Source: Herbaspirillum frisingense GSF30
GTDB taxonomy: Bacteria; Pseudomonadota; Gammaproteobacteria; Burkholderiales; Burkholderiaceae_D
Assembly: GCF_000300975.2 (NCBI RefSeq)
Contig: NZ_AEEC02000020.1
Coordinates: 1-64,000 of the forward strand
Length of the DNA stretch: 64,000 nucleotides
Direction: 5' to 3'
Position 1 is the first letter of the stretch; each line of letters begins with the position of its first letter. The translations under genes and the position numbers were made by a program. Under the pieces are notes generated by a model. The model saw only the letters and a program-made list of their open reading frames with translations, was not told the DNA's origin and ran no database searches. This document shows positions 16,357-43,969 of the stretch, in pieces.

Positions 16357-16366
16357 GATTTCTTCC

Positions 16367-19428: not shown

Positions 19429-19486
19429 GGTGTTCCTTGTGAGAATGAAGAAAGTACAAGCCAGGCGGCGCAGTGCCGCCCAGCAC

Positions 19487-19996: not shown

Positions 19997-20049
19997 TTTT
20001 CATACTCCTTTCAATAGATGCGAAAGGCGGCCGGTCAGGCCGCCATTGC

Positions 20050-21219: not shown

Positions 21220-21286
21220 TGCTCATACTCCTTTAGTTTCAGTGCGGCTTTCGCCGGATTTCAGATTCAGTACGGCAAGGTGCCGC

Positions 21287-21607: not shown

Positions 21608-21609
21608 GC

Positions 21610-26047: not shown

Positions 26048-26165
26048 TTGGCGGTGGGTTGATATCCGCCTTATCGACTCTCAAAAAGCAAATCAGCTTG
26101 TCTTTGCTGGTCGGTGGAAGCCTATGTAAATATTCTAGTTACGAGGAATTCTTCTGTGCCCGCAA

Positions 26166-26414: not shown

Positions 26415-26474
26415 TTTCCATCCCACCAGCTGAGTACATTGGAGCAATTTGACAAATACTTTCCAATCAGCAGT

Positions 26475-28486: not shown

Positions 28487-28857
28487 ATCGATTCCTTCAC
28501 GTCACGCGCCAGCTCGGCAATGTCTTTGCCCTGGCGCCGCTGAAACCAAAGTGCCACCGCCCGGGTGATCCACCAGGCCGGCGCGCCGACCATCAAATCG
28601 ACCGGCTTCGGTCCGAGCACAGCGGCCACTGTCGGCGCGTGCTGTAGCAGCACCGAAAACGCCAGGTCGCCGAACATGATGGAGAACGCGCCGGCGCAGG
28701 CCAGACGCACCACAAATTCCTTCTCATTGAATGAGCCATCTGCATTGCGTGGCGGCAGGACGATATACAGCAGCGCCGCGCCGACCATGCCGAGCACGGC
28801 CTTGATGCCGTAGATTTTCAGGATGGCAGCGATGCCACCGGCGGATTCTGCTGCCAT
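28483..28857 (-). CDS. Phage holin
   Basis: A 124-residue membrane protein with hydrophobic helices near residues 14-34 (YGIKAVLGMVGAALLYIVL) and 51-70 (ACAGAFSIMFGDLAFSVLL), a third weaker one, and a charged C-terminus (RRQGKDIAELARDVKES). Its position before the endolysin supports a holin. AAGGGGAAA sits 9 nt before the ATG at 28857; an ATG at 28893 is also possible. Confidence 0.78.
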   Translation of the reverse strand: MAAESAGGIAAILKIYGIKAVLGMVGAALLYIVLPPRNADGSFNEKEFVVRLACAGAFSIMFGDLAFSVLLQHAPTVAAVLGPKPVDLMVGAPAWWITRAVALWFQRRQGKDIAELARDVKESI

Positions 28858-28897
28858 AACTTGATTTCCCCTTGTCAGTGATTTGCTGTTCATGTCG

Positions 28898-29107
28898 TCA
28901 TTCCCACAAACTGATGCTGTCGCGCGCGCTGGTCGGCGCTTCCATCGCATCCGGTAGCGTGACCATCGTGCCCGCCGGCAGCACAGCGCCAAGCGCTGCA
29001 AGCGATGGATTCAAGGTCAGCGCCTGTTCCACATAGCCGCTGCTAGCGCCCAGGTAGCGAAACACCAGTGCATCGAGCGTGTCGCCCTGCTGGCTGCGGA
29101 CCTGCAT
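28898..29107 (-). CDS. X: Tail protein X (LysM-like)
   Basis: A 69-residue protein with a LysM-like fold pattern (MQVRSQQGDTLDALVFRYLG...VLPAGTMVTLPD), the P2 gpX family, a baseplate-associated tail protein. It overlaps the gpL stop and opens the lysis/tail segment. Confidence 0.9.
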   Translation of the reverse strand: MQVRSQQGDTLDALVFRYLGASSGYVEQALTLNPSLAALGAVLPAGTMVTLPDAMEAPTSARDSISLWE

Positions 29108-29598
29108 CAGATCAGCTCTACGGTCGCATGCGTGCGGCCGAGAATGTCATTGATGGCCCAATGCCCATTACGGCGCTGCACGTCCGGCGCCGTGTCCATC
29201 CATTCCATGTTCTTCTTGTCGGTCAGCGCGCTCGCGGTGGTGTCGTAGTCCCGGTAGCTCTCGAAAATGTCGGCCTTGGCGAAGCTATAGACCGCTCGGC
29301 GGTAGTGCGCCAGAAACTGGCTTTCTCCATCTACCTGCAGCGCCGGCACCTGTTCCAGCTTCTCGATACCGCTGGCCAGGTGCTGCAGTTGCCAGTCGCG
29401 TAGCAACCGATTGGCCGTCAGAATTGCGTCCACTAGGGCAGGGCGTAGGCGTGCATCGGTCACTGTCGAGTCCAGCCGCATGGCGTCCCGCATGGCTAAC
29501 AAGCTGATGTCTGGGAAAAATCCGTCGTTGGTGATGGCCTTCACCTCGGCCGGCGCGGCCGGTGCCGGCGTCACCGGCACGTCATCGATGTAGTTCAT
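29107..29598 (-). CDS. L: Head completion protein gpL
   Basis: A 163-residue protein of the P2 gpL family (DGFFPDISLLAMRDAMRLDS, VTDARLRPALVDAILTANRL). It adds to the filled head before tail joining. The frame extends to 29634 (MSRPPPPTFSKT...); the inner ATG at 29598 (MNYIDDVP) gives the more usual length. Neither start has a strong Shine-Dalgarno. Confidence 0.88.
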   Translation of the reverse strand: MNYIDDVPVTPAPAAPAEVKAITNDGFFPDISLLAMRDAMRLDSTVTDARLRPALVDAILTANRLLRDWQLQHLASGIEKLEQVPALQVDGESQFLAHYRRAVYSFAKADIFESYRDYDTTASALTDKKNMEWMDTAPDVQRRNGHWAINDILGRTHATVELI

Positions 29599-29687
29599 GG
29601 TCTTGGAGAATGTTGGGGGCGGTGGCCGGGACATCCGACGGACAATGCCGCTTCCGTCCCGGGCCGCCCTGCGCCGTGGGGTGCTCT

Positions 29688-30407
29688 TTACTTGGCCGGC
29701 TCGGCGAACTTCTTCAGTCGCCGTTCCAGCCGCTCGATGTCCTTCTTGACGCCGGCCGCCTGGTGCAGCTCACATGCGCGGGTAAGGTGCTGCAGCGCTG
29801 CCGTGGCATGGTCCGCCGAGGTGGCCGTGACGTTCTCGCTGTCCACCTGATTGACGAGGTCCAGCAGAGCCAGGCCGAGCGCCTTATGCACCTTGGCGCG
29901 TGCCTGGTCGGGCGTATCAGCGTTGCCCGTCATGGCCAGGACCTGCTGCAGGATATCGGCCGCCCGTGCCGGCTCGTCCTTCAGCCGGCCGCCCAGGCTG
30001 GCCCCTGCGAAATCGTCCTGCAGCAGCGTGGGCAAGGTCCGGTTGTAGCGATCCGGCAATGTGAACTGGTGTTCCATGGCGTAGCCTGCGATCTGCAGGG
30101 CGCGTTCGTAGTCGCCGACATCGATGTGCCACACCAGCACATTGACTAACACTTCGTCCTGAGCACCGCGTCCGGCCGACAGCACGCCATCAATCCAGTC
30201 TTGATAGGCCGGCAGCATGGTGGCCTTCATTTCGATCTTGCGTTCGATCGATTGGATGTTGGACAGCGTGCGCCGGTCTTCATGGAGCTTCATCAACATC
30301 AGTTCATAGGCGCTGCCGGTTGTCACGCCGCCCGGCTCGCCGGCGGACGCCGCCAGCTTACCGAGCATGCGCTCACGGTGGCGCGCGGCGGGAGACAAGC
30401 GAGACAT
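29688..30407 (-). CDS. M: Terminase small subunit gpM
   Basis: A 239-residue protein matching P2 gpM (MSRLSPAARHRERMLGKLAA at the start, YELMLMKLHEDRRTLSNIQS, LPAYQDWIDGVLSAGRGAQD). It recognises the packaging site and works with gpP. The ATG overlaps the capsid stop by 1 nt. Confidence 0.92.
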   Translation of the reverse strand: MSRLSPAARHRERMLGKLAASAGEPGGVTTGSAYELMLMKLHEDRRTLSNIQSIERKIEMKATMLPAYQDWIDGVLSAGRGAQDEVLVNVLVWHIDVGDYERALQIAGYAMEHQFTLPDRYNRTLPTLLQDDFAGASLGGRLKDEPARAADILQQVLAMTGNADTPDQARAKVHKALGLALLDLVNQVDSENVTATSADHATAALQHLTRACELHQAAGVKKDIERLERRLKKFAEPAK

Positions 30408-31450
30408 CAGGCGCCGCCCGCTGCCGCATCCTGCAGCACCACGTTTTCAACCAGCGTGGCGAGGCCTTCATCCTCGATCACATAGGCGTCGTTCGACGAT
30501 TCGTAGTTTTCGATGCGGTCGGCCTTGGGTTCGTCGACCACGCGACGGCGGCGGCCACCGTTCTGGAAGTAGATCGACAGATTGTCCAGGCGGGTGATCA
30601 GCATGGCATTGGCCGGGAAGGACGGCACGCGCACCGCCGGCAGTCCGCCGATGCGCTTCTGGCTGATGATGACGTCAGCGGCCAGGGTCTCGGTCGGTGC
30701 CTTGTCCTTGTTGATCAGCGGGAAATACTTGTCGTGCAGCAGCTCGCGGCCGACGATCACCACCAGGCCGGTATCGTCCTGATACCACGGGTCCAGATTG
30801 GTCACCGCGTCATACACGGCTGCGTCGAGATTCGCATAATCCGCGCCGGCGCCACTGCCAATGACCACCTTGCCCGGCAGGTCCTGGCCGACCAAGCCCA
30901 TGACACGCTGGGGCGAGTTCTCGCGGATCTGCTGCAGCCAGCCCTTATTGACGTCCTGCAGCAGCGGATACTGCGCCAGATTGGTATCGGCCGCGACCTT
31001 CACACCGTTGAAACCGATCATGATGCGGTCCAGCGCCTGGCGCTTCAGGATTGCATTGGCCACACGGGTCTGGAAGTCCTTGAACTTGGCCCAGGCATCC
31101 AGCTTGGCATAGGTGATGTGAGTGTCGAAGTTGGTCTTCTCGCAGCGATAGCGGGTGTTGGTCATGGCCGACGCGTCCCGGGTGCTGCGGCGCTTGTCAC
31201 CGCGCGTATCGGTACGGCTGGCGATGGGGCCGGATACGCCCAGGCCGATTTTCTCGCCTTCCAGCTCATCGACGCCGATGATGTTGATGCTGCCCAGGAA
31301 TTCGGACGATTCCTGCATCTTGTCTTCCAGCTTCTGTTGCACGCTCGGGTCCACCGAGAAGGTGGAGTGGACGGCGCCGCCGGCGACATCATTGAGCGTG
31401 GCCAGGCGCGAAGTGTAGGCGTTATAGGCGGCGCGGGTCTGATTCTTCAT
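30407..31450 (-). CDS. N: Major capsid protein gpN
   Basis: A 347-residue capsid precursor of the P2 gpN family: KNQTRAAYNAYTSRLATLND, DKMQESSEFLGSINIIGVDE, GEKIGLGVSGPIASRTDT. The N-terminal part is probably removed by the gpO protease during head maturation. It lies 51 bp after gpO. Confidence 0.95.
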   Translation of the reverse strand: MKNQTRAAYNAYTSRLATLNDVAGGAVHSTFSVDPSVQQKLEDKMQESSEFLGSINIIGVDELEGEKIGLGVSGPIASRTDTRGDKRRSTRDASAMTNTRYRCEKTNFDTHITYAKLDAWAKFKDFQTRVANAILKRQALDRIMIGFNGVKVAADTNLAQYPLLQDVNKGWLQQIRENSPQRVMGLVGQDLPGKVVIGSGAGADYANLDAAVYDAVTNLDPWYQDDTGLVVIVGRELLHDKYFPLINKDKAPTETLAADVIISQKRIGGLPAVRVPSFPANAMLITRLDNLSIYFQNGGRRRRVVDEPKADRIENYESSNDAYVIEDEGLATLVENVVLQDAAAGGA

Positions 31451-31501
31451 GTGTTCTGCTCCAGTGAAATGCGGAAATGGTGTACTTGGTCGGCCGGCAG
31501 C

Positions 31502-32344
31502 TTAGAACTCGGTCTGCACAGTGCCGCTGTTGCCGCCACCGGTGGCCGGCGGGCGCTGCAGGTTGCTCTTGTCGGTCAGGTTGATGGTCTGGCGGAACTG
31601 CTCGGCGGTAGTCGATTCATCGCCGACGCGCTTTTCCAGCTTCTCCAGGCGCGCCACGACCTCGGCGACATCCTTGCCGGCCTGCGCGGCGGACTGCGCG
31701 AACTCGCCCACCTTTTCGGCAACGGCGGTCATAGCGGCCACCACGTCGGCATGCTGGGCATCGGCTTTCTTCTCGCCACCACCAATGCGGCTGAACAGTT
31801 GCTTGATGGTCTCGGCCACGCTGGGGCCGTCTTCCTCGAATTCGATGTTGGCCTCGATGGCTTCGGAGAACAGGTTCTCTGGCTTCAGCTTGCGGGGAGT
31901 GAAAGGCGAGGCCTTCGGATTGGTGGCGGAGAACTGCAAAATCTCGGTGCCCAGGCTGGCCGGGCTGTCGGTCACGGCCAGGCCGACCAGATAGGAACTG
32001 CCCGTGTCGGCGAACTTGTCGGCCAGCTCGATGCTAGTGAAAATCTTCTGGCGGTCCTTGTTCATGGCGATCAGCGCGGGCGTGGGCTCGATCTGAGCAA
32101 ACAGGGCCAGGCGCTTACCGTTTTCGGTGTCGACTTCTTCGGCCTTCAGTGCCAGCACATCACCGTAGGCCTTGAACGGGCCATCCGGCAGCAGGCTGCG
32201 CAGGTGTTCGACCCACACGCGAGCGCCGTAGGTTTTCACGTTGTAGCTGTCGGCCATCTGCTGGATTTGCTCGCGGCTGATGCTACGGCCGTCGGTGGTC
32301 GCGCCCTCGGTCGCGACGCGGAAAAATTTGCTCTTGGTTGCCAT
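31502..32344 (-). CDS. O: Capsid scaffold and protease gpO
   Basis: A 280-residue scaffold/protease. The N-terminal protease domain shows candidates for the P2 triad: Asp18 (TTDGR), His47 (WVEHLRS) and Ser104 (IFTSIEL). The C-terminal half is a helical scaffold (AAMTAVAEKVGEFAQSAAQA, then coiled coil). It shapes the procapsid and cuts itself, gpN and gpQ. It is divergent from gpP over a 143-bp region that should hold two Ogr-dependent late promoters. Confidence 0.93.
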   Translation of the reverse strand: MATKSKFFRVATEGATTDGRSISREQIQQMADSYNVKTYGARVWVEHLRSLLPDGPFKAYGDVLALKAEEVDTENGKRLALFAQIEPTPALIAMNKDRQKIFTSIELADKFADTGSSYLVGLAVTDSPASLGTEILQFSATNPKASPFTPRKLKPENLFSEAIEANIEFEEDGPSVAETIKQLFSRIGGGEKKADAQHADVVAAMTAVAEKVGEFAQSAAQAGKDVAEVVARLEKLEKRVGDESTTAEQFRQTINLTDKSNLQRPPATGGGNSGTVQTEF

Positions 32345-32487
32345 GAGATTTCGCGCTCGTTATCGGTTGATCGGATAACGTCATCTTCTGCCGATGGGCG
32401 AAATGCATCAATCAAGTAAGGGTTGATAAGGGGGATAGCGACTCGGCAAAGTCCCCGCTACGCGCGCGCGCCGCCTACGCTTGCGGC
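32345..32487. promoter_or_regulatory. Divergent late promoter region between O and P
   Basis: In P2 the divergent O and P late promoters lie here and are activated by Ogr. The 143 bp include a partial inverted pair (CGTTATCGGTTGATCGGATAACG at its left end). I could not define -10 boxes or Ogr sites with confidence. Confidence 0.4.
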
Positions 32488-34269
32488 ATGTTAGAAATTC
32501 CAGAAGACATCAAGGACAACATCGACCAGGCGGCCGAGCCTCGACAGGTCGCGCGCCGCCTGTATTTCGAGGGCTGGCGCATCTCGTCGATTGCGCGCCA
32601 CCTGAAGATTAAGCGTTCCACGGTCAATAGCTGGAAGCACCGCGATGAATGGGAAAAAGTCTCGCGCCTGGAGCGCGTAGAGATTGCCCTTGAAGCGCGC
32701 ATAGTGCAACTGATCGCCAAGGAAGTAAAGGGCAATGGCGAGTACAAGGAACTCGACGCGCTCATGCGCCAGCTGGTGCAGGCCGCGCGTGTGCGCCGCT
32801 ATGAGCAACCTGGCGGCAACGAAACTGACCTCAATCCGAACATCGCCAATCGCAATGCCGGGCCGAAGAAAAAGCCGGTGCGCAACGAGTTCAGCGAAGA
32901 GGCGCAGCAGCGCATTGTCGAGGCATTCAATGATTCGCTGTTCGACTACCAAAAGGTATGGTTCCGCAATGGCGCAGAGCGTACGCGGATCATCCTGAAA
33001 TCGCGGCAGATCGGCGCGACCTGGTACTTTGCACGCGAGGCGCTGATTGATGCGATCCAGACGGGGCGCAATCAGATTTTTCTCTCGGCCTCGAAGTCGC
33101 AGGCGCATGTTTTCAAGCAGTACATCATCCAGTTCGCGAAGGATGCGTGCGGCGTGGAACTGTCCGGCGATCCCATCGTGCTGCCCAATGGCGCGCACCT
33201 GTATTTCCTTGGCACGAACGCACGTACCGCCCAGGGTTACCACGGCAACTTCTATTTCGATGAATTCTTCTGGACGCACAATTTCACCGAACTGAACAAG
33301 GTCGCGTCCGGCATGGCTTTGCACAAGAAGTGGCGCAAGACCTACTTCTCGACGCCCTCGGCCACCACGCACCAGGCTTATCCGTTCTGGACCGGCGAGG
33401 CGTTCAACAAGCGTCGCGCCAAGGGCGAAAAGGTCAACATCGATGTCAGCCATAAGCGTCTGTCATCGGGATTCACCGGTGAGGACAAAATCTGGCGCCA
33501 GATCGTCACGATCATGGACGCGGCCGCCGGTGGCTGCGATCTGTTCGACATCGACGAGCTGCGCGATTTCGAATATTCGCCAGACCAGTTCGACAACCTC
33601 TTGATGTGTAATTTCATCGACGATTCTGCGTCGGTGTTCCCGTTAGCGGACCTGCAGCGCGGCATGGTCGATTCGTGGGTGGATTGGGATGACTATAAGC
33701 CCTTCACGGCACGTCCCTTCGGCCATCGGCCCGTGTGGATTGGCTACGACCCTTCGCTGACAGGTGATAGCGCCGGCTGCTCGGTGCTCGCTCCCCCGCT
33801 GGTCCCCGGTGGCAACTTCCGCATCTTGGAGCGCCACCAGTGGCGCGGCAAAGATTTTTCGGAGCAAGCCGCTCTCATCAAGGAAATGTGCGGCCGCTAC
33901 AACGTCCAGTACATCGGCATCGACACCACCGGCATGGGCGTGGGCGTCTATCCCCTAGTGAAACAGTTCTTCCCGGGCGTGACCGCTATCAGCTACTCGC
34001 CAGAAGTCAAAACGCGCATGGTGTTGAAGGCACAGAACATCATCCGCAGCGGTCGCCTGCAATTCGATGCCGGCTGGACCGACATCGCGCAGTCCTTCAT
34101 GGCCATTCGCAAGATCCTCACCCCCAGCGGGCGCGCGGTCACCTATGACGCCGGCCGCTCGGAAGAAACTGGCCACGCTGACTTGGCCTGGTCAGTCATG
34201 CATGCCCTCGACTACGAGCCGTTCGAAGGCACCACCGCCAACAACACTTCCTCCATGGAGTTCTTCTAA
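32488..34269 (+). CDS. P: Terminase large subunit gpP
   Basis: The 593-residue packaging motor. An N-terminal HTH (YFEGWRISSIARHLKIKRST) precedes the ATPase domain with a Walker-A-like LKSRQIGATW and Walker B FYFDEFFW. The C-terminal nuclease domain carries acidic clusters IGYDPSLTGDSAGCSVL and IGIDTTGMGVGVYP. It drives cos cleavage and DNA packaging. It starts the short rightward late operon P-Q; the stop overlaps the gpQ ATG. Confidence 0.95.
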   Translation: MLEIPEDIKDNIDQAAEPRQVARRLYFEGWRISSIARHLKIKRSTVNSWKHRDEWEKVSRLERVEIALEARIVQLIAKEVKGNGEYKELDALMRQLVQAARVRRYEQPGGNETDLNPNIANRNAGPKKKPVRNEFSEEAQQRIVEAFNDSLFDYQKVWFRNGAERTRIILKSRQIGATWYFAREALIDAIQTGRNQIFLSASKSQAHVFKQYIIQFAKDACGVELSGDPIVLPNGAHLYFLGTNARTAQGYHGNFYFDEFFWTHNFTELNKVASGMALHKKWRKTYFSTPSATTHQAYPFWTGEAFNKRRAKGEKVNIDVSHKRLSSGFTGEDKIWRQIVTIMDAAAGGCDLFDIDELRDFEYSPDQFDNLLMCNFIDDSASVFPLADLQRGMVDSWVDWDDYKPFTARPFGHRPVWIGYDPSLTGDSAGCSVLAPPLVPGGNFRILERHQWRGKDFSEQAALIKEMCGRYNVQYIGIDTTGMGVGVYPLVKQFFPGVTAISYSPEVKTRMVLKAQNIIRSGRLQFDAGWTDIAQSFMAIRKILTPSGRAVTYDAGRSEETGHADLAWSVMHALDYEPFEGTTANNTSSMEFF

Positions 34270-35321
34270 TGAAACACCGAGCACGCCGCCGCGCGGCTGC
34301 ATCCGACAACACGCTGCCGGCCAGGGCCAAGGCGCCGCCGGCACCATCCGTTGAAGCGTTCTCTTTCGGCGATCCTTCGCCCGTGCTGGAAGGCCGTGAC
34401 ATGCTGGCGGACGTCGAGTGCTACCGCAATGGCGACTGGTACGAACCACCCTTGAGCATGCCGGGCCTGGCAAAATCCCTCAATGCCAGTGTCCACCACG
34501 CCAGTGCGATCTGGTGCAAGGTCAATATCCTGGCGTCGACGTTCCAGCCGTCGCCGGTTCTCTCGCGGTCAGACTTCACCCGCCTGGCGCTGGATTTTCT
34601 GCTGTTCGGCAACTGCTACGCTGAGCGGCGCGAGAGTATGACGGGCAAGCTCTTGGGCCTCAAGCCAGCGCTGGCCAAGTACACGCGCGTGGGCGTGGAC
34701 CCCGGGCGCTATTTCTTCGTCAATGGCTGGCGGGATACCTACGAATTCGAGAGGGGCGCCATCTGGCACTTGCAGGCGCCAGACATCAATCAGGAGGTGT
34801 ATGGCGTGCCGCAGTATGTGAGCGCGCTGCAATCGGCCTGGCTCAACGAGTCCGCCACGCTCTTTCGTCGCCGCTACTACCTCAACGGCTCGCATGCCGG
34901 CTTCATCCTCTACATGACCGACACGGCTAGCAACGTCAACGACGTGGACAAGCTGCGCGAGGCGATGCGCAACAGCAAAGGGCCTGGAAATTTCCGCAAC
35001 CTGTTTGTGTATGCACCTGGCGGAAAGAAGGACGGTTTGCAGATCCTGCCGGTTTCCGAGATCGCGGCCAAGGACGAATTTTTCAACATCAAGAACTGCA
35101 CGCGCGACGACGTGCTGGCCGCACACCGGGTGCCTCCGCAACTGCTCGGCACCATGCCCAACAACACCGGCGGCTTCGGCGATGTGACCAAGGCGGCCGC
35201 CGTCTTCGGCTGCAACGAGATTGAGCCGCTGCAAGCCCAGTTCCTTTCCTTGAACGAGTGGGCCGGCCAGGAGGTGGTCCGTTTCCGCTCCTATCAACTT
35301 CCTACCAATGAGGGGAAATAA
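34269..35321 (+). CDS. Q: Portal protein gpQ
   Basis: A 350-residue portal of the P2 gpQ family (YEPPLSMPGLAKSLNASVHH, LLFGNCYAERRESMTGKLLG, VPPQLLGTMPNNTGGFGDVT). It forms the dodecameric head vertex used for packaging and tail joining. Confidence 0.95.
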   Translation: MKHRARRRAAASDNTLPARAKAPPAPSVEAFSFGDPSPVLEGRDMLADVECYRNGDWYEPPLSMPGLAKSLNASVHHASAIWCKVNILASTFQPSPVLSRSDFTRLALDFLLFGNCYAERRESMTGKLLGLKPALAKYTRVGVDPGRYFFVNGWRDTYEFERGAIWHLQAPDINQEVYGVPQYVSALQSAWLNESATLFRRRYYLNGSHAGFILYMTDTASNVNDVDKLREAMRNSKGPGNFRNLFVYAPGGKKDGLQILPVSEIAAKDEFFNIKNCTRDDVLAAHRVPPQLLGTMPNNTGGFGDVTKAAAVFGCNEIEPLQAQFLSLNEWAGQEVVRFRSYQLPTNEGK

Positions 35322-35323
35322 GC

Positions 35324-35533
35324 ATGAGCGATTACGCGGATAACGCTGACAACACGATATACAGCACTATCGCGGCTAGTCTCGCAGCAGCCCGACGCGC
35401 ACCGTCACTGATACCGGATCGCCGTTGCCATTTTTGCGCCGAAATAGTGGCGACTGATCTATTTTTTTGCAACCACGACTGTCGTGACGACTTCGAGCGG
35501 CAGGAAAGAGCATGGAAGATTCAGGGGAAATAG
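35324..35533 (+). CDS. Small putative zinc-finger protein, 69 aa
   Basis: It follows gpQ by 2 bp with AGGGGAAATAAGC before its ATG. The middle reads CHFCAEIVATDLFFCNHDC, a C-x2-C-x10-C-x3-C finger of treble-clef type, followed by a helical charged tail. It may be a small DNA or protein binder expressed with P-Q. No family name is certain. Confidence 0.65.
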   Translation: MSDYADNADNTIYSTIAASLAAARRAPSLIPDRRCHFCAEIVATDLFFCNHDCRDDFERQERAWKIQGK

Positions 35534-35703
35534 GAATTGAGATGATGGCTGCCGCAAAGTAAGGAAATTCCTGATACCCACCGAACTGTTGTGCTTGCAT
35601 CATGCGGAATTCTAGGCTGATGCTTGGAGGGCGCTCGTACGTTGAGTCAACACGTTCTTTTCACGCCTAGCCAGTACGTCTATTCTCTTGGCTTGGAACG
35701 GAT

Positions 35704-36030
35704 TTGAACAATAAGAAGATTTTCGAAAGATGTGCCAAAGGAGGACTCATAGCATCAGCATTGCCTGTGATTTTCTGTGCCTTTGTCTTGGGTCCTACTG
35801 CGACATTTTTGGGCCTAGTCGCAAACATCAACAAGCTTTCATCTCACCTGGAGAATTCTCTTCCGGTACGACTATTTTTCGTGAGTGCAGCCTATCCCGC
35901 GCTTTTTGTTGTGCAGTGCTATGTGGTCAAGTTTTGCATGTTGAATAGCAATAAGATGTGCGGGGTGCTGATAGCTTGGTCAGGGCTGACCATCTTCATA
36001 TTCAGCCTTTTCTTCATAGGCTTTTTCTGA
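35704..36030 (+). CDS. Putative membrane protein with TTG start, 108 aa
   Basis: TTG at 35704 follows GGAACGGA by a few bases. The product has three hydrophobic segments (residues ~13-37, 54-75 and 86-107), for example ALPVIFCAFVLGPTATFLGL and VLIAWSGLTIFIFSLFFIGF. Codon use is AT-richer than in the structural genes, as for cargo. Function unknown; it might alter the host envelope or exclude other phages. Confidence 0.5.
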   Translation: MNNKKIFERCAKGGLIASALPVIFCAFVLGPTATFLGLVANINKLSSHLENSLPVRLFFVSAAYPALFVVQCYVVKFCMLNSNKMCGVLIAWSGLTIFIFSLFFIGFF

Positions 36031-36194
36031 GTAAGTGAAAGGTTCTTGAATTCTGGTTCTAGGATGGGCCCGCCAACGGATCGGGGAAACTTATTTCCTG
36101 AGCGCCGCAACATCTAGAACCATGTTTCTCCAATCTGCAGCAGATGATCTCTGTTCGCCTTGGTGAATAATGCACAGAATAAATTGGAGAAGAA

Positions 36195-36539
36195 ATGTCT
36201 GAGGTTATGTTGAAGGAGATAGTCGGGCGATATGCATTGGTAATACGGGAGATTGGGAAGAAGGCGGATCAAGGGCAAATCGTCGGTGATTTGATAAGAG
36301 TACAGGTGAGAAAGTGCTTAATCGAAATGCATGCGGCCGGCGCTGAAGCGGCCGATATTCGCGCAATCTTTGATAATCTTGAAAAGCATCCCCTTGAGGA
36401 TTGCACTTCAGCTGATCACCGATTTTCTAAACTACTCACGACAATGAAGCTGCACGTTGAATTTTTGCTCTTCATCGAAGACCACGAGCTAGCCCCTTCT
36501 TCGCCAAAGAAAGGCAATAGTAGTTTTGGCTTTCATTAG
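36195..36539 (+). CDS. Unrecognised 114-aa protein, paralogue of the protein at 40720
   Basis: GGAGAAGAA precedes the ATG. The protein is all-helical. Its residues aligned without gaps over about 85 positions to the protein at 40720-41055: shared landmarks are RYxLxI, VGDL, a Cys about 10 residues later, M-x3-G-x-E-x3-IRxI, and F-x3-L near the end. Both sit beside signalling genes (receiver 37055, chemoreceptor 38878), so a role in that module is plausible. I do not recognise the family. Confidence 0.65.
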   Translation: MSEVMLKEIVGRYALVIREIGKKADQGQIVGDLIRVQVRKCLIEMHAAGAEAADIRAIFDNLEKHPLEDCTSADHRFSKLLTTMKLHVEFLLFIEDHELAPSSPKKGNSSFGFH

Positions 36540-37054
36540 CCTGGTGGTGTCGATTTTTTTTATATCTGGCAATTAAGTGTGGCCGGACGCTTGTACAAAA
36601 GCGAGTTCATGCGCCAAATTTCTTATCCAAAGTCTAACGCCTTTGTACAAGCAGAGCTCGTTTCATCTCAATATTAGCCGGCACCATTTCGAAGAAACAC
36701 ATAGCGTTTTCCCCAGCAACTCATGGAATAACCTTCCTTCCCGTTATCCGTAACTTTTGTATCGAAAAGGTCGAGTCGGCGCTGCGATTTGCAATTTAAA
36801 TTGTCGGGACCTTTACGAGCGTGTCATCGGTGCCCAGCAAAATAGGGCGTCCATAATTTTCTCTTGATGCGAGAATTTTAGATGTTGCATAACTCATATG
36901 TCCTCGATTTGACGTAGTTATTAGCGGTATTTACTTAATTGAAATTCCCATTTTGCGGGACTTTTGACATGAAACTGTGGTCGGGTAGGTCCATAATAGG
37001 TTCAGCCAATAAAACCCTTAACGGGCATATAGCCAGGAGCGGAGGGTTGACATC
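36540..37054. other. 515-bp AT-rich non-coding stretch with an inverted repeat
   Basis: No credible gene is seen. It holds the inverted repeat at 36590-36651 and ends with the GGAGCGGAGGG leader of the receiver gene. It probably contains that gene's promoter, which I could not place. Confidence 0.5.
36590..36651. repeat. 14-bp inverted repeat, 34-bp spacer
   Basis: CTTGTACAAAAGCG at 36590-36603 and CGCCTTTGTACAAG at 36638-36651 are inverted copies with one mismatch. Each inner half contains TTGTACAA, itself palindromic, which suggests two binding sites for a dimeric regulator. Confidence 0.55.
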
Positions 37055-37498
37055 ATGCACGGGAGACAACGTAGTCTACTAATCGCTGAGGACGATTCGA
37101 ATGTGCGCAGCATCTTTGCGGAGATTTTCTCCGAGAGAGGCTACCGAGTGTTAGAAGCGTCAAATGGTGCCGAAGCATATGCCATGCTGTTGTGTCCCGA
37201 TGTGGTGGTGAATGTTGTGCTGACCGATCTACGCATGCCCGTAATGGACGGACTGGAATTCGCGAGTAAGGTAAAAAATGATACGCAGCTTTCAGCTATT
37301 CCTATCGTCTTACTCAGCGCGACGCCACTGCCAAACTCTTGGCAAGCTCGGCAGATTTTTGATGCGCTATTAGTTAAACCATGCCCGCTGCCGCTTCTGA
37401 TTTCAACTGTGGAAACCGTGCAAATAGCACAAAGCGGTGATGCAGTTCAATCCGAGTCTCCGATCTTGCAGGCTAGAGATGACTTCACGCGTCTGTGA
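37055..37498 (+). CDS. Stand-alone receiver-domain response regulator
   Basis: A 147-residue protein made of one receiver domain. The acidic pocket is EDD at residues 11-13, the phospho-acceptor Asp lies in LTDLRMP near 58, followed by the conserved Ser/Thr (LLSAT) and Lys (LLVKPCP). There is no output domain, so it works like CheY/Spo0F by protein contact. GGAGCGGAGGG precedes the ATG. Encoded 1.4 kb before a chemoreceptor in the same prophage cargo, it may act with it, but no histidine kinase is present in the window. Confidence 0.88.
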   Translation: MHGRQRSLLIAEDDSNVRSIFAEIFSERGYRVLEASNGAEAYAMLLCPDVVVNVVLTDLRMPVMDGLEFASKVKNDTQLSAIPIVLLSATPLPNSWQARQIFDALLVKPCPLPLLISTVETVQIAQSGDAVQSESPILQARDDFTRL

Positions 37499-37706
37499 GG
37501 CTCTTAATTTTCAGATGCGCAGCCCAGATTGCCATACTACGCAGGCTGTTGAAGTCAGGATAAACATTGGCAGTGTCCCGGATAATCTCAACCTCTTCTC
37601 CTTTGCGCAGTTCAAGGGCCATTCGCCAACCGCCATCGATCTCGTATCCGATGATGGTGATATCGAATCCCCTGTAGGCGAAGCCAAAGGTAAGGGATGT
37701 TTCCAT
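37485..37706 (-). CDS. Hypothetical 73-aa protein
   Basis: AGGAAAGCA precedes the ATG. The product (METSLTFGFAYRGFDITIIG..., ANVYPDFNSLRSMAIWAAHL) looks like a small beta-sheet plus C-terminal helix. It overlaps the receiver gene tail-to-tail by 14 nt and lies 136 bp beyond the SOS operon in the same direction, so it could be part of that transcript. No family is recognised. Confidence 0.6.
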   Translation of the reverse strand: METSLTFGFAYRGFDITIIGYEIDGGWRMALELRKGEEVEIIRDTANVYPDFNSLRSMAIWAAHLKIKSLTDA

Positions 37707-37842
37707 TGCTTTCCTAAGTCACGCTGGTGATGAGCTGTGCTGCTTTGTAACGGAGCCTGGTGCGCACATTTTTTATTTTTGTTGTATGCGCAGCCGATAT
37801 AGAAGCTGAAGAAAAGCTCGACAACGAGCCAAACCATTATGC

Positions 37843-38211
37843 CTAATGTTGTGTCCCGCCGCTGCTTTTGAAGAACTTCTCTCTTGATGTCTCCAGCAGT
37901 GGTCCTCCTGCCTGCACGCATAGCCAGGCCTGCGCAAACTCCACCACGCCACGATCTGTTTTCCGTCGCTCGATGCCCTTGATCACCATGCGCGACGCTT
38001 TGATAGCATCGACATGGACATCAACCAGCTCCATGACCACGTCACCATTGTCCCGCTGAAGTCGCGCCGCCTTGGTTGGCCGGCGTCGTTCTCCATCGTG
38101 GAACACCCCCAAGCGCAGCTCACCAATATTGCGCGCCTCATCGCCTAACAACTCGCCGGGGATCTCTACGCCGTTCCGGCGCATCTGATAAACGGTCACT
38201 TGCATGCTCAT
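37843..38211 (-). CDS. Unrecognised 122-aa protein, second gene of the LexA-box operon
   Basis: The ATG overlaps the stop of the upstream gene as ATGA, so it is translated from the same SOS-controlled message. The product (MSMQVTVYQMRRNGVEIPGE..., ARNIGELRLGVFHDGERRRP, VVMELVDVHVDAIKASRMVI) is a mixed alpha/beta protein of about 120 residues with no motif I can name. A role in prophage induction, as for the SOS-induced Tum antirepressor of phage 186, is a hypothesis from the context. Confidence 0.65.
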   Translation of the reverse strand: MSMQVTVYQMRRNGVEIPGELLGDEARNIGELRLGVFHDGERRRPTKAARLQRDNGDVVMELVDVHVDAIKASRMVIKGIERRKTDRGVVEFAQAWLCVQAGGPLLETSREKFFKSSGGTQH

Positions 38212-38477
38212 CCCACGTGCGGCAGCGCCGCCTCATCCGTTTTGTAATGCGACGTCACGTGCTCAAGCGTGCCGCCCAGCGATGAGTACCGGTAGCGCTG
38301 GCGAAGGCGTACGGTGTCTTGGTCGAATCGCTTGTAGTCGGCGGCCGGACTGGGGAAGCCGACATGCGGCTTGTGCGAGATGTGCAGAGCCAGCGGCTCG
38401 CCGGCGAACTGAATGGGTGAGGCGGGCTGGACAGGGCTCCCTGGCGGGATTGGCGCGGGATAAGTGGGGAGTGACAT
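38208..38477 (-). CDS. 89-aa protein with UmuD-like GFPSPAADY motif, first gene of the SOS operon
   Basis: The protein has a Pro-rich start (MSLPTYPAPIPPGSPVQ), then LALHISHKPHVGFPSPAADYKRFDQ split around a motif that matches the cleavage-site region of UmuD (E. coli has CGFPSPAADY). Here Val replaces the Cys before Gly. It stops after 89 residues and has no Ser-Lys protease domain. A LexA box lies 34 bp upstream of the start. It could be a UmuD-arm mimic acting on RecA, UmuD or LexA-like partners; this is inference. No clear Shine-Dalgarno is seen. Confidence 0.65.
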   Translation of the reverse strand: MSLPTYPAPIPPGSPVQPASPIQFAGEPLALHISHKPHVGFPSPAADYKRFDQDTVRLRQRYRYSSLGGTLEHVTSHYKTDEAALPHVG

Positions 38478-38877
38478 ATTGACAACAATGAATGGCGGTT
38501 GGAGAAATTATACTGTACGTATGAACAGTATAATTCACTTTCTTGGCCCTGCGCGCGCGGTTGCCCCCACCCCGCGCCTGCCCGCAACATAGGTCTGTTT
38601 TGGCTCAAATCGCGTCGGCCGCCGCCGTCGCCCCCGCCTGGCCCGGACGCCCAACCGATAGGCTTCAAATCTGACGCGTTTTGACGCATGTTGCGAACTA
38701 TCTCGAGAGCGCGCAAATGTCAATCGGGGAAAAAGCAGTGGTTTCGCCGCAAAAAAAAAGAAGCTCATCCCGGAATTCGGTAGAAAATCCGCAAAAAAAC
38801 AAATAAACTGAATTTAATGATTTAAATATTTAAATGACGAATTAAACATTTATTGTTCGATAACGAAAGGATGTGCC
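38478..38877. other. 400-bp divergent non-coding region (LexA box, chemoreceptor leader)
   Basis: Between the SOS operon and the chemoreceptor gene. The left part holds the LexA box; the middle is GC-rich without a credible frame; the last 100 bp are very AT-rich and end with GAAAGGA before the chemoreceptor ATG. A promoter for the latter is expected in the AT-rich part but no clear -35/-10 pair stands out. Confidence 0.5.
38506..38535. promoter_or_regulatory. LexA (SOS) box
   Basis: TACTGT at 38511-38516 and ACAGTA at 38525-38530 with 8 bp between match the CTGT-N8-ACAG LexA consensus, and the symmetry extends to perfect 11-bp arms (AATTATACTGT). A TATAAT on the leftward strand lies within the right arm, so LexA would cover the promoter of the 38477 operon. 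Confidence 0.88.
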
Positions 38878-40422
38878 ATGAAAGCCATCATAAATATGAA
38901 AATTGGGGCAAAACTGGGGGCGGGTTTTGGGGCCTTATTGGTATTGATGGTGATCCTTGCGGCAATCGCTTGGGCTAGCCTGAACTCGGTGACCAATGCT
39001 ATGGAGCGCGGTAACGATGTCCAGGTTGATAAGCTCGGACCAATATACGTGATGCGTGAAGCGCTAGGCCAGACCGGTTTAGCGGCCCGCAATGCATATA
39101 TTTTCAAATCCGATACCGATGCACAAAAGGAGCTTGCTATCCTCGATCAGCAAAAGGGAATCTACCTTGCCGCGCTCAAGGAATTAAAGAACTCCATGGC
39201 GGAGACCAAGGAGTTTGAAGCGGTCAGTGCAGGTTTGCTCAAGATGGCAGAAGAATTACGCCGCCCCCGCGCTTATCGGGAGGCAGGGAAGATGAGCGAG
39301 TATGGAGACTTTCTCGTCCATGAGTGTAGCCCTTTGCGCCGCCAGATCGTTGCAGATATGGACGTGTTATTGGCCCGAGTGAAACGTGAAGCTGATCTCG
39401 CACGGACGAGCGCTAGTCAGACCTCAGACCATTCTCGCGCCGTAATCCTGACTTTAGCCAGCGTTGCGCTTGTCTCCAGCGCTCTCATTGCTCTTCTCAT
39501 CACTCGTGGGTTGCTTAAACAGCTCGGCGGTGAACCTAGCTACGCAGCTGAGATAGCCGCCAAGATAGCAAGGGGTGATCTTTCCATTGACGTCCGTACC
39601 AAGCAAGGGGATAGCACTAGCTTGTTATTTGCAATTCGGACCATGCGCGAAAGCTTGGCTTCGATTGTCACACGCGTTCGATCCGGCACCAACAATATCG
39701 AAACCGCCGCAACCGAAATCGCTACGGGGAATCACGATCTCTCCCGTCGTACCGAAGAACAAGCCGGCTCTCTTGAAGAAACCGCGGCAGCAATGGAAGA
39801 ACTTACCTCCACCGTTAAGCAAAACGCGGATAACGCGCGTCAGGCTAATGACTTAGCGGAATCTGCGTCGAAAATCGCAGGCGAAGGCGGTGTCGTTATT
39901 GATCAGGTGATCTCGACGATGAATGAGATCAATGACTCATCCAAGAAAGTAGTAGACATCATCAGTGTGATAGACGGTATAGCATTTCAGACCAATATTC
40001 TTGCACTCAACGCTGCGGTGGAAGCCGCCCGCGCGGGTGAGCAAGGCAGAGGCTTTGCCGTGGTTGCCAGCGAAGTACGTAGTCTGGCGCAACGAAGCGC
40101 TGCCGCTGCGAAAGAGATTAAGGTGCTTATCGGGGATTCGGTGCAAAAAGTGGAGGCCGGCAGCCAATTGGTTACCCAAGCAGGCCGAACTATTGGGGAT
40201 ATTGTAGAAAGCGTTAAGCGCGTCACGGCCGTGGTATCTGAAATATCTGCAGCGAGTATTGAGCAAAGCGACGGTATTGGTCAGGTCAATATGGCCATCA
40301 GCCAAATGGACAATGTCACCCAGCAGAATGCAGCGCTTGTGGAAGAAGCTACTGCTGCAGCCCAATCTTTGCAGTTTGAGTCGGTAGAGCTCTCCAAAGT
40401 AGTGGCCACTTTTAAAATCTAG
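38878..40422 (+). CDS. Methyl-accepting chemotaxis protein (prophage-borne chemoreceptor)
   Basis: A full-length 514-residue receptor. TM1 (about 14-36) and TM2 (about 188-210) flank a periplasmic four-helix-bundle domain (about 37-187, [20 protein letters not shown]...). A HAMP domain and a long coiled-coil signalling domain follow. The kinase-contact hairpin [20 protein letters not shown] is intact, and methylation-helix segments ([20 protein letters not shown]) are present. It lacks an NWETF-type CheR tether. AAAGGATG precedes the ATG. No CheA/CheW gene is nearby, so it must use the host's. It likely leads an operon with the small genes downstream. Confidence 0.95.
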
Positions 40423-40484
40423 GTGAGTTTGGCAAGGTAAGGTAGCTACGGCAATAACCTCTATTTGATCAAAGGAAGGCTCCA

Positions 40485-40694
40485 ATGGAAATTGAACCAG
40501 CTAAACAACTGACTGCTGACGACATAACGCTACTTATGAAAGCGATGGAGAAACTTAAAGATGAGCTGAACGAACTGTCGAAAACCTTGAATGAGGTTGC
40601 TTTCGCGATGGAAGAGGAGGAGGCGCAGAAATTCAAGGTGACGGTGTTTGATGTTATAGCGAAAATCAAAAGGCAGATTCAGCAGGCCCCCTAG
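40485..40694 (+). CDS. Small helical protein after the chemoreceptor, 69 aa
   Basis: AAAGGAAGG precedes the ATG, 62 bp after the chemoreceptor stop. The product (MEIEPAKQLTADDITLLMKA..., KDELNELSKTLNEVAFAMEE) is one long coiled coil with a charged end. Its size and position suggest an accessory to the receptor or to the protein that follows 25 bp later. No family recognised. Confidence 0.65.
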   Translation: MEIEPAKQLTADDITLLMKAMEKLKDELNELSKTLNEVAFAMEEEEAQKFKVTVFDVIAKIKRQIQQAP

Positions 40695-40719
40695 AAATTA
40701 TTTTACGAGAGGAGAAAAT

Positions 40720-41055
40720 ATGTCATTTGGAGAAAGCATTGCGACCAGATACGTTTTGATAATTGCGTCGATTGCGCATATGTCTCAGCGCGGCGAAGAC
40801 GTGGGCGATTTGGCCTTGTTAGCAGTGAAAGACTGTATTTTCGCTATGCGGCAAGATGGGATTGAAAGCAAGGAAATTCGAAAGATTCTCCATGATAAAT
40901 TTGAAGCGGAATTAGCGCTTTCTGGCCAGCATTGTGTGATATTTCGGCGTGTATTAGAGCAATCATCTCTTCGAATGAGCATGCTCTTGAGCTTTGAACA
41001 GGCTGCTACTCCGCATACTGAAGTAGCAAAACATAACTCGCCGCCTAGAATTTAG
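40720..41055 (+). CDS. Unrecognised 111-aa protein, paralogue of the protein at 36195
   Basis: GAGGAGAAAAT precedes the ATG. The sequence (RYVLIIASIAHMSQRGEDVG, DCIFAMRQDGIESKEIRKIL, FRRVLEQSSLRMSMLLSFEQ) matches the 36195 protein in spacing of RYxLxI, VGDL, Cys, G-x-E-x3-IR and the C-terminal F/L pattern, with no gaps over 85 positions. Divergence is high (about a quarter identical by eye), so the duplication is old or the two were acquired separately. It probably shares a transcript with the chemoreceptor. Confidence 0.68.
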   Translation: MSFGESIATRYVLIIASIAHMSQRGEDVGDLALLAVKDCIFAMRQDGIESKEIRKILHDKFEAELALSGQHCVIFRRVLEQSSLRMSMLLSFEQAATPHTEVAKHNSPPRI

Positions 41056-41071
41056 TGGCGGCGGGATCAAT

Positions 41072-41344
41072 ATGTCTATTCGTTTTTTTCGAGCAGCACT
41101 AATAGCCTTTTCCGCTTTGTCTACACTAAGCGCGGTCTCGCCACAGACGGAAGCCACGACCACTTCCGCGAGCTTAACCATGTCGGCGATCGTTACAATT
41201 ACTTGTCGCTTGACGCAAGATCGAGAACAACCATCAATAGTCAGCAGCCTATGCACTAGGGGGACCGACTTTTCTTCTTTAGAGCAGCGCGCTTACGTTA
41301 CGACGATTCAGAGAACCGAACGGGCGGCTGTAGCAATTTTCTAA
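41072..41344 (+). CDS. Possible small secreted protein, 90 aa
   Basis: It starts 16 bp after the previous gene. MSIRFFRAALIAFSALSTLS is signal-peptide-like, with cleavage possible near QTEA. The remainder is short and Ser/Thr-rich with two Cys (TITCRL, SSLCTRG). A competing leftward frame overlaps it (41256-40963) and lacks a good start. Coding is suggested by operon position and the leader only. Confidence 0.4.
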   Translation: MSIRFFRAALIAFSALSTLSAVSPQTEATTTSASLTMSAIVTITCRLTQDREQPSIVSSLCTRGTDFSSLEQRAYVTTIQRTERAAVAIF

Positions 41345-41556
41345 AGCGGATGGCGATGATTGTTGAATTGCCGCGAAAAATGCCCAGCTTTTCACTACGC
41401 ATTCGTTCATACATTGGGAAGAATCTCTCGGACGGTCCTTTTGTATTGATAATGTTCTTGTCGTAGATCAGCTTGTTGTGTGTTCTGGCCCTCTATTCAC
41501 ATAGATATAAAGCTACGCTGTGTAAAACATCTTTCCAATGTGGAGGGGGCGACGTC

Positions 41557-41739
41557 ATGTATGTTGTTTGCTTAATATTTGCCACGTTATCTGCGATTGG
41601 TTGCGTATTCGTAACTATCCTGTTCATTTCAAATGGACGCGACCTAGACACTCACGCATTTGAAGCAGCCCGCCGCATAAATGAAGAAAAAATGGCGCAT
41701 AACGATCATAACGAGTTAGATCGAACGGCAACTAAATAA
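41557..41739 (+). CDS. Small membrane protein, 60 aa
   Basis: GGAGGGGGCGACGTC precedes the ATG at 41557. One N-terminal membrane helix (MYVVCLIFATLSAIGCVFVT) is followed by a charged cytosolic tail (EAARRINEEKMAHNDHNELD). The frame runs upstream to 41473, but the Shine-Dalgarno fixes this start. Function unknown. Confidence 0.55.
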   Translation: MYVVCLIFATLSAIGCVFVTILFISNGRDLDTHAFEAARRINEEKMAHNDHNELDRTATK

Positions 41740-42029
41740 TTTGGGGGCTACTTATAGGCAAGGAAGGCCTGCTTCTGGCCGATCCGAACCTCGACAATTT
41801 AGCAAGCATTCGCATTCGGTGACAAAAATTCCGCTTCGCAATTTTTGAAGGATCGAGACCCAGTAAGGCCTAGCGGGGTGATAATTTTTCTAAATTGCGA
41901 AGCAAAATTTGAGCTAAGTGTCTGATATAAATAGAATTCGCTCCGGACTTGTAATCAGGAGGGCGGGGCGACGAATTCCTCTGGCAGCCCGCATCTCATA
42001 AATACTTCAGAAGATGCAGGTGTAGTAAC
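41740..42029. other. Non-coding stretch before the restriction gene
   Basis: 290 bp with no credible gene. It contains the inverted repeat at 41826-41910 and probably the promoter of the restriction gene. Confidence 0.5.
41826..41910. repeat. 19-bp inverted repeat upstream of the restriction gene
   Basis: Arm 41826-41844 (AAATTCCGCTTCGCAATTT) and arm 41892-41910 are inverted copies matching at 17 of 19 positions, 47 bp apart. They could be paired operators or a long mRNA hairpin about 120-200 bp before the endonuclease ATG. Confidence 0.55.
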
Positions 42030-42761
42030 ATGCTGCATCAATTTTCCCTCGCGCCTGTAATGTTCGATACCAGTACTTTTGACGATCCTTTTGTCCTTGA
42101 TCCGGTAATCCGCCGCCGATGGGCGTTCATGGAAACCAGTTCTGCTGCAGCAGTATTACGCTTAGTATGTCCTAATGAATGGGCTGATATCGTCCATGTA
42201 TTACGGTCGTTTGAGCTTGATCCTAAACAGTGGCTAAGGGCTGGCGGCAATCGAGGCGATATCGCCCAAGTGATTGATGGAATGTTTTCCCAACTTGGCT
42301 GGAAGGAGACGCGAGTAGATTTGTCTACTCAAGGAATCTTGCTGTCAAAAAAGCTCGAAGTTATTGAGCGCTTGCCAGCAGTTCATCAGGAAGGGTACTT
42401 AGTCGATAATTTCAAGGGCCGAGTCGCTCTTGACGTTGAATGGAATGCGAAGGATGGCAACCTGGACCGAGACTTATCGGCGTACCGCGCCTGGCATGAA
42501 GCTGGTGTAATTTCTGCTGCTGTTCTGATTACGCAGGACCGCGTACGATTGAAACAACTTGCCGAAATGCTGTGGCGTGACTATCAGCAGACGCTGCCCG
42601 AGACTCAGCGGAATTCAAAACTCCCGATTGACCTCAATACATCCACCACGACTAACCTTGAAAAGGCAGCGCTCCGCGTTCGGAGGGGGGTTATGGGAAC
42701 ATGTCCACTATTGATCGTCGCGGCAACTCCTGAAACATGGAACGGTCAGCCGTATAGGTAA
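42030..42761 (+). CDS. BglII/BstYI-family type II restriction endonuclease
   Basis: A 243-residue protein with the family's core: KLEVIERLPAVHQEGYLVDN then FKGRVALDVEWNAKDGNLDR, where Asp-x10-Glu approximates the active-site acids, and the following helix RDLSAYRAWHEAGVISAAVLITQ. BglII and BstYI cut AGATCT and RGATCY; the target of this one cannot be read from sequence. AGGTG precedes the ATG. It is convergent with the methyltransferase gene across a bidirectional hairpin. It would be toxic without cognate methylation. Confidence 0.8.
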   Translation: MLHQFSLAPVMFDTSTFDDPFVLDPVIRRRWAFMETSSAAAVLRLVCPNEWADIVHVLRSFELDPKQWLRAGGNRGDIAQVIDGMFSQLGWKETRVDLSTQGILLSKKLEVIERLPAVHQEGYLVDNFKGRVALDVEWNAKDGNLDRDLSAYRAWHEAGVISAAVLITQDRVRLKQLAEMLWRDYQQTLPETQRNSKLPIDLNTSTTTNLEKAALRVRRGVMGTCPLLIVAATPETWNGQPYR

Positions 42762-42767
42762 AATTTT

Positions 42768-42792
42768 AAAGGGAGTTGCATTAACTCCCTTT
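42768..42792. terminator. Bidirectional hairpin between restriction and methyltransferase genes
   Basis: AAAGGGAGTT and AACTCCCTTT pair perfectly around GCATT. T-rich sequence follows in the leftward direction and a shorter pyrimidine run rightward, so it should end both convergent transcripts. Confidence 0.75.
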
Positions 42793-42812
42793 CTCCTGTT
42801 AATCACTGCGGT

Positions 42813-43493
42813 TCATAACGTCACGATCAGGTCTGAGCGCGCAGGCTCAGCTTGCGAGTGATTTTGATAGGTATCCCAAGACGGGAAGTATGTTTCATCG
42901 GCTTGGTTGCCCCACACCGTCCAATTTTTCCGTTCACCACGAGCGAACATTTCAAGATACGGGCCAGGGCTACATGCTTCGATTAGCGGGTATTGCTCAT
43001 CCGGTTTGCGTGAATGTTCACGCTTGCGAGTTGCTAAGAAATTTACTTGGCTTCTTGCAGGGGCAAGTGTTCTCGCATTTTTTCCTCGCACGCCAAAGAG
43101 AATCAACTCTGTGACATTTCTGAAATAAAAACCGACACCTCTGCCGTCAGGTCCTCCATCCTTACGGATCTTGTGCCAGACAAGGTTGCTTTTATATTCG
43201 AAGCCCCAAGCCTTAAGAACGGCAAGTCCTTCGGGCAAGAGAGCGTTAGGCACCCAAAGGTAGAGATGGCTCGTGTCTGCAGCTGCCGCCGCGACTGGCA
43301 ACGCCTTTATATCGTCTAAGGTCATGGTTGGATAGCGATTGAGGCGTTTATGTTCTGGCGCAACCTTACCTGTGCGATTTTCAAATTGCCAAGGTGGGTC
43401 AGCGAGAATGGTTCCAAACTTCCTGCCGCCTACAAACTCGCGAAAATCTGCTGCTGCATCCTGCGGCTTGTCCACTGGTGGAATTTCTTTCAT
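42813..43493 (-). CDS. MT-A70-family adenine N6 DNA methyltransferase
   Basis: The catalytic motif appears as ILADPPWQFENRTG, followed by YPTMTLDDIKALPVAAAAAD, HLYLWVPNALLPEGLAVLKAW and FYFRNVTELILFGVRGKN, all MT-A70 landmarks. This class methylates adenine N6. Beside a BglII/BstYI-like enzyme it most likely protects the A of a GATC-containing site. The start at 43493 is chosen because AAGGA lies 4-5 nt upstream; earlier Met codons (43511, 43592) overlap the HTH gene. About 226 residues. It is co-directional with the HTH gene, 10 bp downstream. Confidence 0.85.
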   Translation of the reverse strand: MKEIPPVDKPQDAAADFREFVGGRKFGTILADPPWQFENRTGKVAPEHKRLNRYPTMTLDDIKALPVAAAAADTSHLYLWVPNALLPEGLAVLKAWGFEYKSNLVWHKIRKDGGPDGRGVGFYFRNVTELILFGVRGKNARTLAPARSQVNFLATRKREHSRKPDEQYPLIEACSPGPYLEMFARGERKNWTVWGNQADETYFPSWDTYQNHSQAEPARSDLIVTL

Positions 43494-43503
43494 ATCTTCC
43501 TTG

Positions 43504-43812
43504 TTATGCATTTTGCGACAACTGCAAATTAATCTGTTTTGATCCACCAAACCTGCCTTTTGTTGCTCCCCCTCGAGGCTTATTGGCTTCAAACTGGATA
43601 CGATTCAGCGTCGCGCGATAATCCATCCCCGATTCAGCCATATCGCCCATTAACGCAGCGATGATCGCTAGATGAGGGGGGACCTCTCCATGTTTGGCAT
43701 GGTTACTGATTGAGTTGGGACTCTGCTTAATTAGGTCAGCAAAGCCTTTTACGGTAAGCCCGGCTTTCCCGAGCTGCCGTCGGAATTCGTCGTAGGTCAT
43801 GGCGGCAATCAT
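43504..43812 (-). CDS. HTH protein, probable regulator of the restriction-modification unit
   Basis: A 102-residue protein: TYDEFRRQLGKAGLTVKGFA then DLIKQSPNSISNHAKHGEVP form an XRE-like helix-turn-helix; the C-terminal part is basic (NKPRGGATKGRFGGSKQ). Placed just before the methyltransferase, it fits a controller, though the sequence is longer than classic C proteins. Start could be Met1 (43812) or Met5 (43800); neither has a Shine-Dalgarno, so the message may be leaderless. Candidate operators lie upstream. Confidence 0.7.
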   Translation of the reverse strand: MIAAMTYDEFRRQLGKAGLTVKGFADLIKQSPNSISNHAKHGEVPPHLAIIAALMGDMAESGMDYRATLNRIQFEANKPRGGATKGRFGGSKQINLQLSQNA

Positions 43813-43849
43813 AACAGACGTGGTGCTTTACACATTATATAATTTACCT

Positions 43850-43885
43850 ATCAAATCAAATAGTGTGTACGGTAAATGATTTGAT
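43850..43885. promoter_or_regulatory. Candidate operator pair before the HTH gene
   Basis: ATCAAATCA at 43850-43858 and TGATTTGAT at 43877-43885 are perfect inverted copies, with ACCTATC/GTTTTACGG flanks loosely similar. TATAAT on the leftward strand lies at about 43842-43837 next to the first copy, so binding here would affect the HTH-methyltransferase promoter. Confidence 0.5.
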
Positions 43886-43948
43886 GTTTTACGGTTCTGA
43901 ATTGCAATATTGGAGTTTAATTAAGCTTTAGTCTTTGTTTCTGAATAA

Positions 43949-43969
43949 CAAATCCTGCCCCCGCAACCA
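43949..43969 (+). repeat. attR core (21-bp direct repeat)
   Basis: An exact copy of the last 21 bases of tRNA-fMet at 7389-7409. Beyond it lies the tRNA's own terminator, and before it the phage cargo ends. Confidence 0.92.

Follow-up and report, generated by a model that had tools for sequence, protein, structure and literature searches.

The operon analysed here raises the question of why a prophage of Herbaspirillum frisingense GSF30 carries, behind a LexA-type box, an 89-aa ORF that contains the UmuD motif GFPSPAADY, together with a second ORF of 122 aa (orf3). A preliminary description of this DNA had regarded the 89-aa product as a possible mimic or decoy of the UmuD arm, and the operon as a possible carrier of the SOS-to-induction signal, like Tum of phage 186. 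We find that the feature singled out in this way is the deletion scar of a known operon, and that it is the conserved SOS gene behind the scar that merits follow-up. All positions refer to the window, i.e. the whole stretch of 64,000 nucleotides that was analysed (Table 1).

A LexA-boxed operon in a P2-like prophage

The operon lies in a P2-like prophage, with a P2-type portal gene and a gpA-type replication gene (Phage_GPA) between the att repeats. The candidate repressor of this prophage (13359-13796) has only an HTH domain in Pfam, which agrees with the earlier statement that the lysogeny repressor lacks an autocleavage domain. Several other genes of the element were noted in passing. The integrase (7366-9132) is a large serine recombinase with Resolvase and Recombinase domains, though a tRNA-Met gene contains the att repeat. 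Close to attR and still within the prophage, a gene for a BglII-family restriction endonuclease (42030-42761, plus strand) stands beside one for an MT-A70 methyltransferase (42813-43592, minus strand), and the operon itself is flanked by genes for a response-regulator receiver protein (assigned by Pfam; 37055-37498) and a chemoreceptor-like protein (38878-40422). Similar chemoreceptor genes are also found nearby at two of the compared loci (L108 and L073).

Upstream of the two minus-strand ORFs, which overlap by 4 nt, there is an extended LexA box, TATACTGT-N8-ACAGTATA, at 38509-38532. This is the sole match in the window when up to two mismatches are allowed, with none expected by chance; the bare core CTGT-N8-ACAG is not significant on its own (one found, 0.55 expected). 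The inverted arms (38506-38516 and 38525-38535) are complementary over all 11 nt, so that both the near-ideal box and the pair of overlapping genes behind it stand as they had been described. The box precedes the umuD-derived sequence, as in umuDC operons, and LexA-type boxes occur at the matching place before umuD in five of the compared loci (L035, L037, L040, L041 and L074). With an intact box, the operon would be expected still to be repressed by LexA and induced by SOS.

Table 1. Positions of the prophage, the portal gene and the parts of the SOS cassette in the window
Feature	Positions	Strand	Remarks
Prophage limits	7389..43969		Bounded by 21-bp repeats CAAATCCTGCCCCCGCAACCA, one (7389-7409) at the 3' end of a tRNA-Met gene, the other at 43949-43969
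Portal gene, P2 gpQ type (phrog_68)	34269..35321	+	Cassette adjoins the portal gene here and in related prophages
orf3, 122-aa SOS-cassette protein, PHROG phrog_5560 family	37843..38211	-	Conserved start Met3 at 38205
89-aa ORF, probable deletion fusion (scar)	38208..38477	-	UmuD codons 1-48 plus the last ~41 codons of UmuC, from protein and DNA comparison
umuC 3'-end remnant	38208..38335	-	Compensating frameshifts, +1 (~38305) and -1 (~38264)
Deletion junction	38333..38335	-	3-bp microhomology ACA common to umuD and umuC; ~1.49 kb missing relative to intact L035/L037
umuD-derived part	38333..38477	-	Contains GFPSPAADY and Val39-Gly40, where intact relatives have Ala-Gly
LexA-type SOS box	38506..38535		Perfect 11-bp arms; core CTGT-N8-ACAG at 38513-38528

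The 89-aa ORF and the umuD-to-umuC deletion

When the 89-aa protein was compared with genomes of the family, the long open frames that it matched were complete UmuDs and aligned with its residues 1-51 only, with 69% identity to one full UmuD. The corresponding DNA is 73-83% identical to umuD 5' regions. The motif GFPSPAADY, at residues 40-48, had thus been rightly assigned to the UmuD family, the homology being evident in protein and DNA alike. At the other end of the ORF, the C-terminal 41 residues are a damaged copy of the end of UmuC, a protein that viral contigs encode directly upstream of relatives of the 122-aa protein and that ends there in NKRFGRDTVRLASAAGPHRWAARFEHVTPHYTTDWKALPRVR or a close variant of it. 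Two indels of opposite sign, about 40 bases apart, garble some 14 residues of this tail before the frame is restored. A collection of phage records gave no match to the 89-aa protein and only a chance-level one to its 41-residue tail.

Alignment of the DNA locates the join to the base. Positions 77-368 of the window operon correspond to 159-450 of a related locus with the whole operon (L035), and positions 366-858 to 1943-2435; the two collinear blocks meet at a single point, and L037 and L040 give the identical breakpoint. The presence of collinear DNA on both sides of one breakpoint indicates descent from an intact umuDC operon. The fusion was found in one lineage only, in three near-identical copies in related prophages, and represents one event.

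We compared the operon with those that encode DNA polymerase V. It shares with umuDC operons the LexA box, the N-terminal 48 residues of UmuD, the last ~41 residues of UmuC (the DUF4113 region) and the gene order. In the intact reference operon (L037), Pfam identifies UmuD as Peptidase_S24 and UmuC by IMS, IMS_C and DUF4113, whereas the 89-aa ORF has no Pfam match at all, lacks the S24 Ser/Lys autopeptidase domain and retains neither of the Y-family polymerase domains (IMS, IMS_C). The lack of a Ser-Lys protease domain had been noticed before, and the reason for it is that the domain was deleted. As the UmuD peptidase domain and all polymerase domains of UmuC are gone, the operon cannot make Pol V.

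On these sequence comparisons we consider it very probable that the 89-aa ORF is the scar of a ~1.49-kb deletion that ran from umuD to umuC at a 3-bp microhomology. The motif GFPSPAADY, read from the same alignments, is inherited UmuD sequence rather than mimicry, since the ORF that holds it is a umuD::umuC deletion fusion. The valine in front of the glycine is indeed present, at residue 39, but the residue that it replaces in this UmuD lineage is alanine and not cysteine. The tempting idea of a mimic thus gives way to a deletion scar that is documented to the base.

Cassette decay and constraint on orf3

At the same position in intact related prophages the order is LexA box-umuD-umuC-orf3, in one case, a Herbaspirillum locus (L074), followed by the gene for an SOS response-associated peptidase (SRAP). 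Three loci have kept the whole operon (L035, L037 and L074). The others have lost parts of it in various ways: the end of umuD and all of umuC (L038), umuC and most of orf3 (L041), or internal pieces of umuC and orf3 (L040), while L053 and L075 are damaged in other ways relative to L037. In a further locus (L073) umuD is damaged, umuC is frameshifted and orf3 lacks its start. The host genome also contains a second C-terminal remnant of UmuC (G000:C93:161274-161417, locus L093; DUF4113, in a 74-aa frame), followed by a broken orf3 start, i.e. another decayed umuDC-orf3 cassette. Given the varied deletions in sibling loci and this second remnant, decay of these operons is ordinary here.

This raises the possibility that orf3 and the rest of the cassette alike are pseudogenes in decay, without present function. 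The many independent deletions in sibling loci, the triple damage in L073 and the second remnant would all fit such a view. A strong claim of selection for keeping orf3 during the loss of umuDC was rejected, because orf3 was lost as well in L040, L041, L053 and L075 and is thus not indispensable. Two observations speak against a dead cluster, namely the perfect LexA box and the state of orf3 in the window, which is full length and for which comparison with intact lineages gives a dN/dS of about 0.05, with dS at saturation. We regard a dead cluster as unlikely, although less so than the other alternatives considered below.

The dN/dS values themselves, which are pairwise counts on short sequences along a branch that in part predates the deletion, as may part of the low orf3 value, are 0.05-0.09 for orf3 of the window against L035, L037, L038, L073 and L074 (0.05-0.08, with dS above 1, against L035 and L037, where the operon is whole), 0.20-0.35 for the UmuD remnant against the UmuD N-termini of L035, L037, L040, L041 and L003, and 0.07-0.22 among these five N-termini. 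For the reasons just given, we take the contrasts as supportive and not as decisive. Judged by sequence conservation, orf3 is most likely an operon product conserved under constraint, and the surviving functional one.

What kind of protein this might be is indicated by its family. All 15 aligned members match phrog_5560, to which the window protein aligns with residues 10-99 on positions 1-88 of the 90-position profile (E 1e-4); PHROG labels the family as of unknown function, a name without a mechanism. No credible family for orf3 emerged from Pfam, NCBIfam or PADLOC, and at the limits used the window's 122-aa protein matched nothing in the phage or plasmid collections. A sequence match to a PDB entry (2hfq, E 0.23) was judged to be due to chance. 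A confident AlphaFold (AF2) model (mean pLDDT 90.5, pTM 0.81) predicts a mostly beta-stranded protein, with six main strands, a short helix and a C-terminal helix. Its best match among solved structures in Foldseek is weak (E 0.026) and PH-like, a library of viral structures yielded nothing better, and VIA-align retrieved PH, EVH1 and Ran-binding domains with Z up to 6.7, in the tool's own middling range. The model may thus point to a PH-like barrel with a C-terminal helix, which we offer as a suggestion only.

The orf3 family and its SOS neighbourhoods

The association of orf3 with LexA boxes extends beyond umuDC. Viral contigs contributed 37 copies that stand alone (L111-L147). An exact CTGT-N8-ACAG precedes 34 of these, at a distance from the start of mostly 30-37 nt; of the other three, two have the box at a like distance with one mismatch (L111) or two (L134), and the third lacks its 5' part (L146). 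As in the window, orf3 lies immediately past the portal gene in many P2-like prophages. The family is rare outside that of the host, with 7 genomes of other families among 399 drawn from the order, and outside the order there was none among 369 genomes drawn from the class.

Of 63 loci, 29 have SRAP next to orf3. It follows orf3 on the same strand in 18 of them, precedes it in 4 and is encoded on the opposite strand in 7. The counts for these three arrangements overstate independence, because many of the phage copies beside SRAP are closely related among themselves. In an isolated phage, Pseudomonas phage vB_PstS-pAN (L148, 2216-3234), 2 bp separate the annotated SRAP gene from an orf3 homologue behind it, which is labelled as a hypothetical protein. 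The proximity of SRAP to UmuCD and its occurrence in prophages have already been described by Aravind et al. 2013 (PMC3765255), in passages that were not found to name orf3. The SRAP protein YedK acts on abasic sites (PMC9436759). The related cassettes resemble SRAP (YedK/HMCES) SOS neighbourhoods in having SRAP beside orf3, or after umuD-umuC-orf3 as in L074, whereas the window has no SRAP left (best E 4 in a search of the window).

Two further arrangements deserve a record. In many P2-like prophages (around 8000-9000 in L123, L126, L131, L136 and L144), a LexA box, orf3 and SRAP form a compact operon beside the portal gene, with the SRAP start 10 bp past the orf3 stop. At six Pseudoduganella loci (L078-L080, L055, L058 and L062), a LexA-boxed orf3 lies beside a gene for a DeoR-type regulator, and the gene order there is conserved and does not resemble that of a prophage.

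With regard to the proposed link to prophage induction, the 122-aa (or the 89-aa) protein would be an antirepressor like Tum of coliphage 186, needed because the repressor has an HTH domain but no autocleavage domain. LexA-controlled antirepressors are an established kind (PMC3121763), so that orf3 could conceivably be one. The window prophage has in common with such systems a LexA-controlled gene and a repressor without autocleavage domain; its LexA-type box is near the packaging end of a P2-like prophage, and orf3 is widespread in prophages. In contrast to what such a role would suggest, relatives of orf3 are found in phages unlike one another and next to non-phage genes such as the DeoR-type regulator of Pseudoduganella, the gene is found without umuDC and beside SRAP, and in intact operons it is the gene after umuC in a Pol V cassette, a different origin from that of Tum. 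No sequence relation was found either, as neither ORF matches the DinI or Tum families in Pfam, NCBIfam or PHROGs and orf3 resembles no named family. We found no positive evidence that the operon carries the induction signal and consider such a role highly improbable.

Least probable of all, with hardly any chance in our estimate, is a functional mimic of the UmuD arm that binds RecA filaments, UmuD/UmuC, the beta clamp or LexA and so damps SOS or Pol V: 48 residues of a true UmuD arm are kept, the cleavage region included, three related prophages carry the ORF and its frame stays open through two compensating indels, so that its product could matter beyond being a scar, but it belongs to a single lineage, its C-terminal half comes from the UmuC tail, part of it garbled by frameshifts, its UmuD part has an elevated dN/dS and a search of the host genome for another UmuD as a target returned only LexA. 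Of the earlier interpretation, an SOS-type operon with a real UmuD-derived segment in a prophage remains, without the purpose-built mimic.

The most likely reading is that of a truncated prophage SOS damage-tolerance cassette, in which SOS still induces orf3 and the scar ORF serves as a leader. The ancestral unit consisted of a LexA box, umuD, umuC and orf3, with SRAP next in one intact copy, and comparison shows that the deletion took away the protease domain of UmuD along with the greater part of UmuC. The scar ORF would now be a translated leader, coupled to the translation of orf3, a part that it could play because it is closed by the stop codon inherited from umuC, with 2 nt between that codon and the conserved orf3 start. 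The orf3 protein itself would then contribute to SOS damage tolerance alongside SRAP or Pol V. From gene neighbourhood, the only basis for this role, we would put it at a little below an even chance. Somewhat more tentatively still, orf3 could represent an undescribed class of SOS effectors, found mainly in prophages of Oxalobacteraceae, that works with SRAP (in abasic-site capture) or Pol V on damaged phage and host DNA, with the cassette of the window prophage cut down to the LexA promoter and orf3.

What emerges is a small LexA-boxed gene family, with no function assigned by PHROG, that is found next to SRAP in several gene orders. Should orf3 prove to be a partner of SRAP or Pol V, DNA-damage tolerance in bacteria and their phages would gain a new component.
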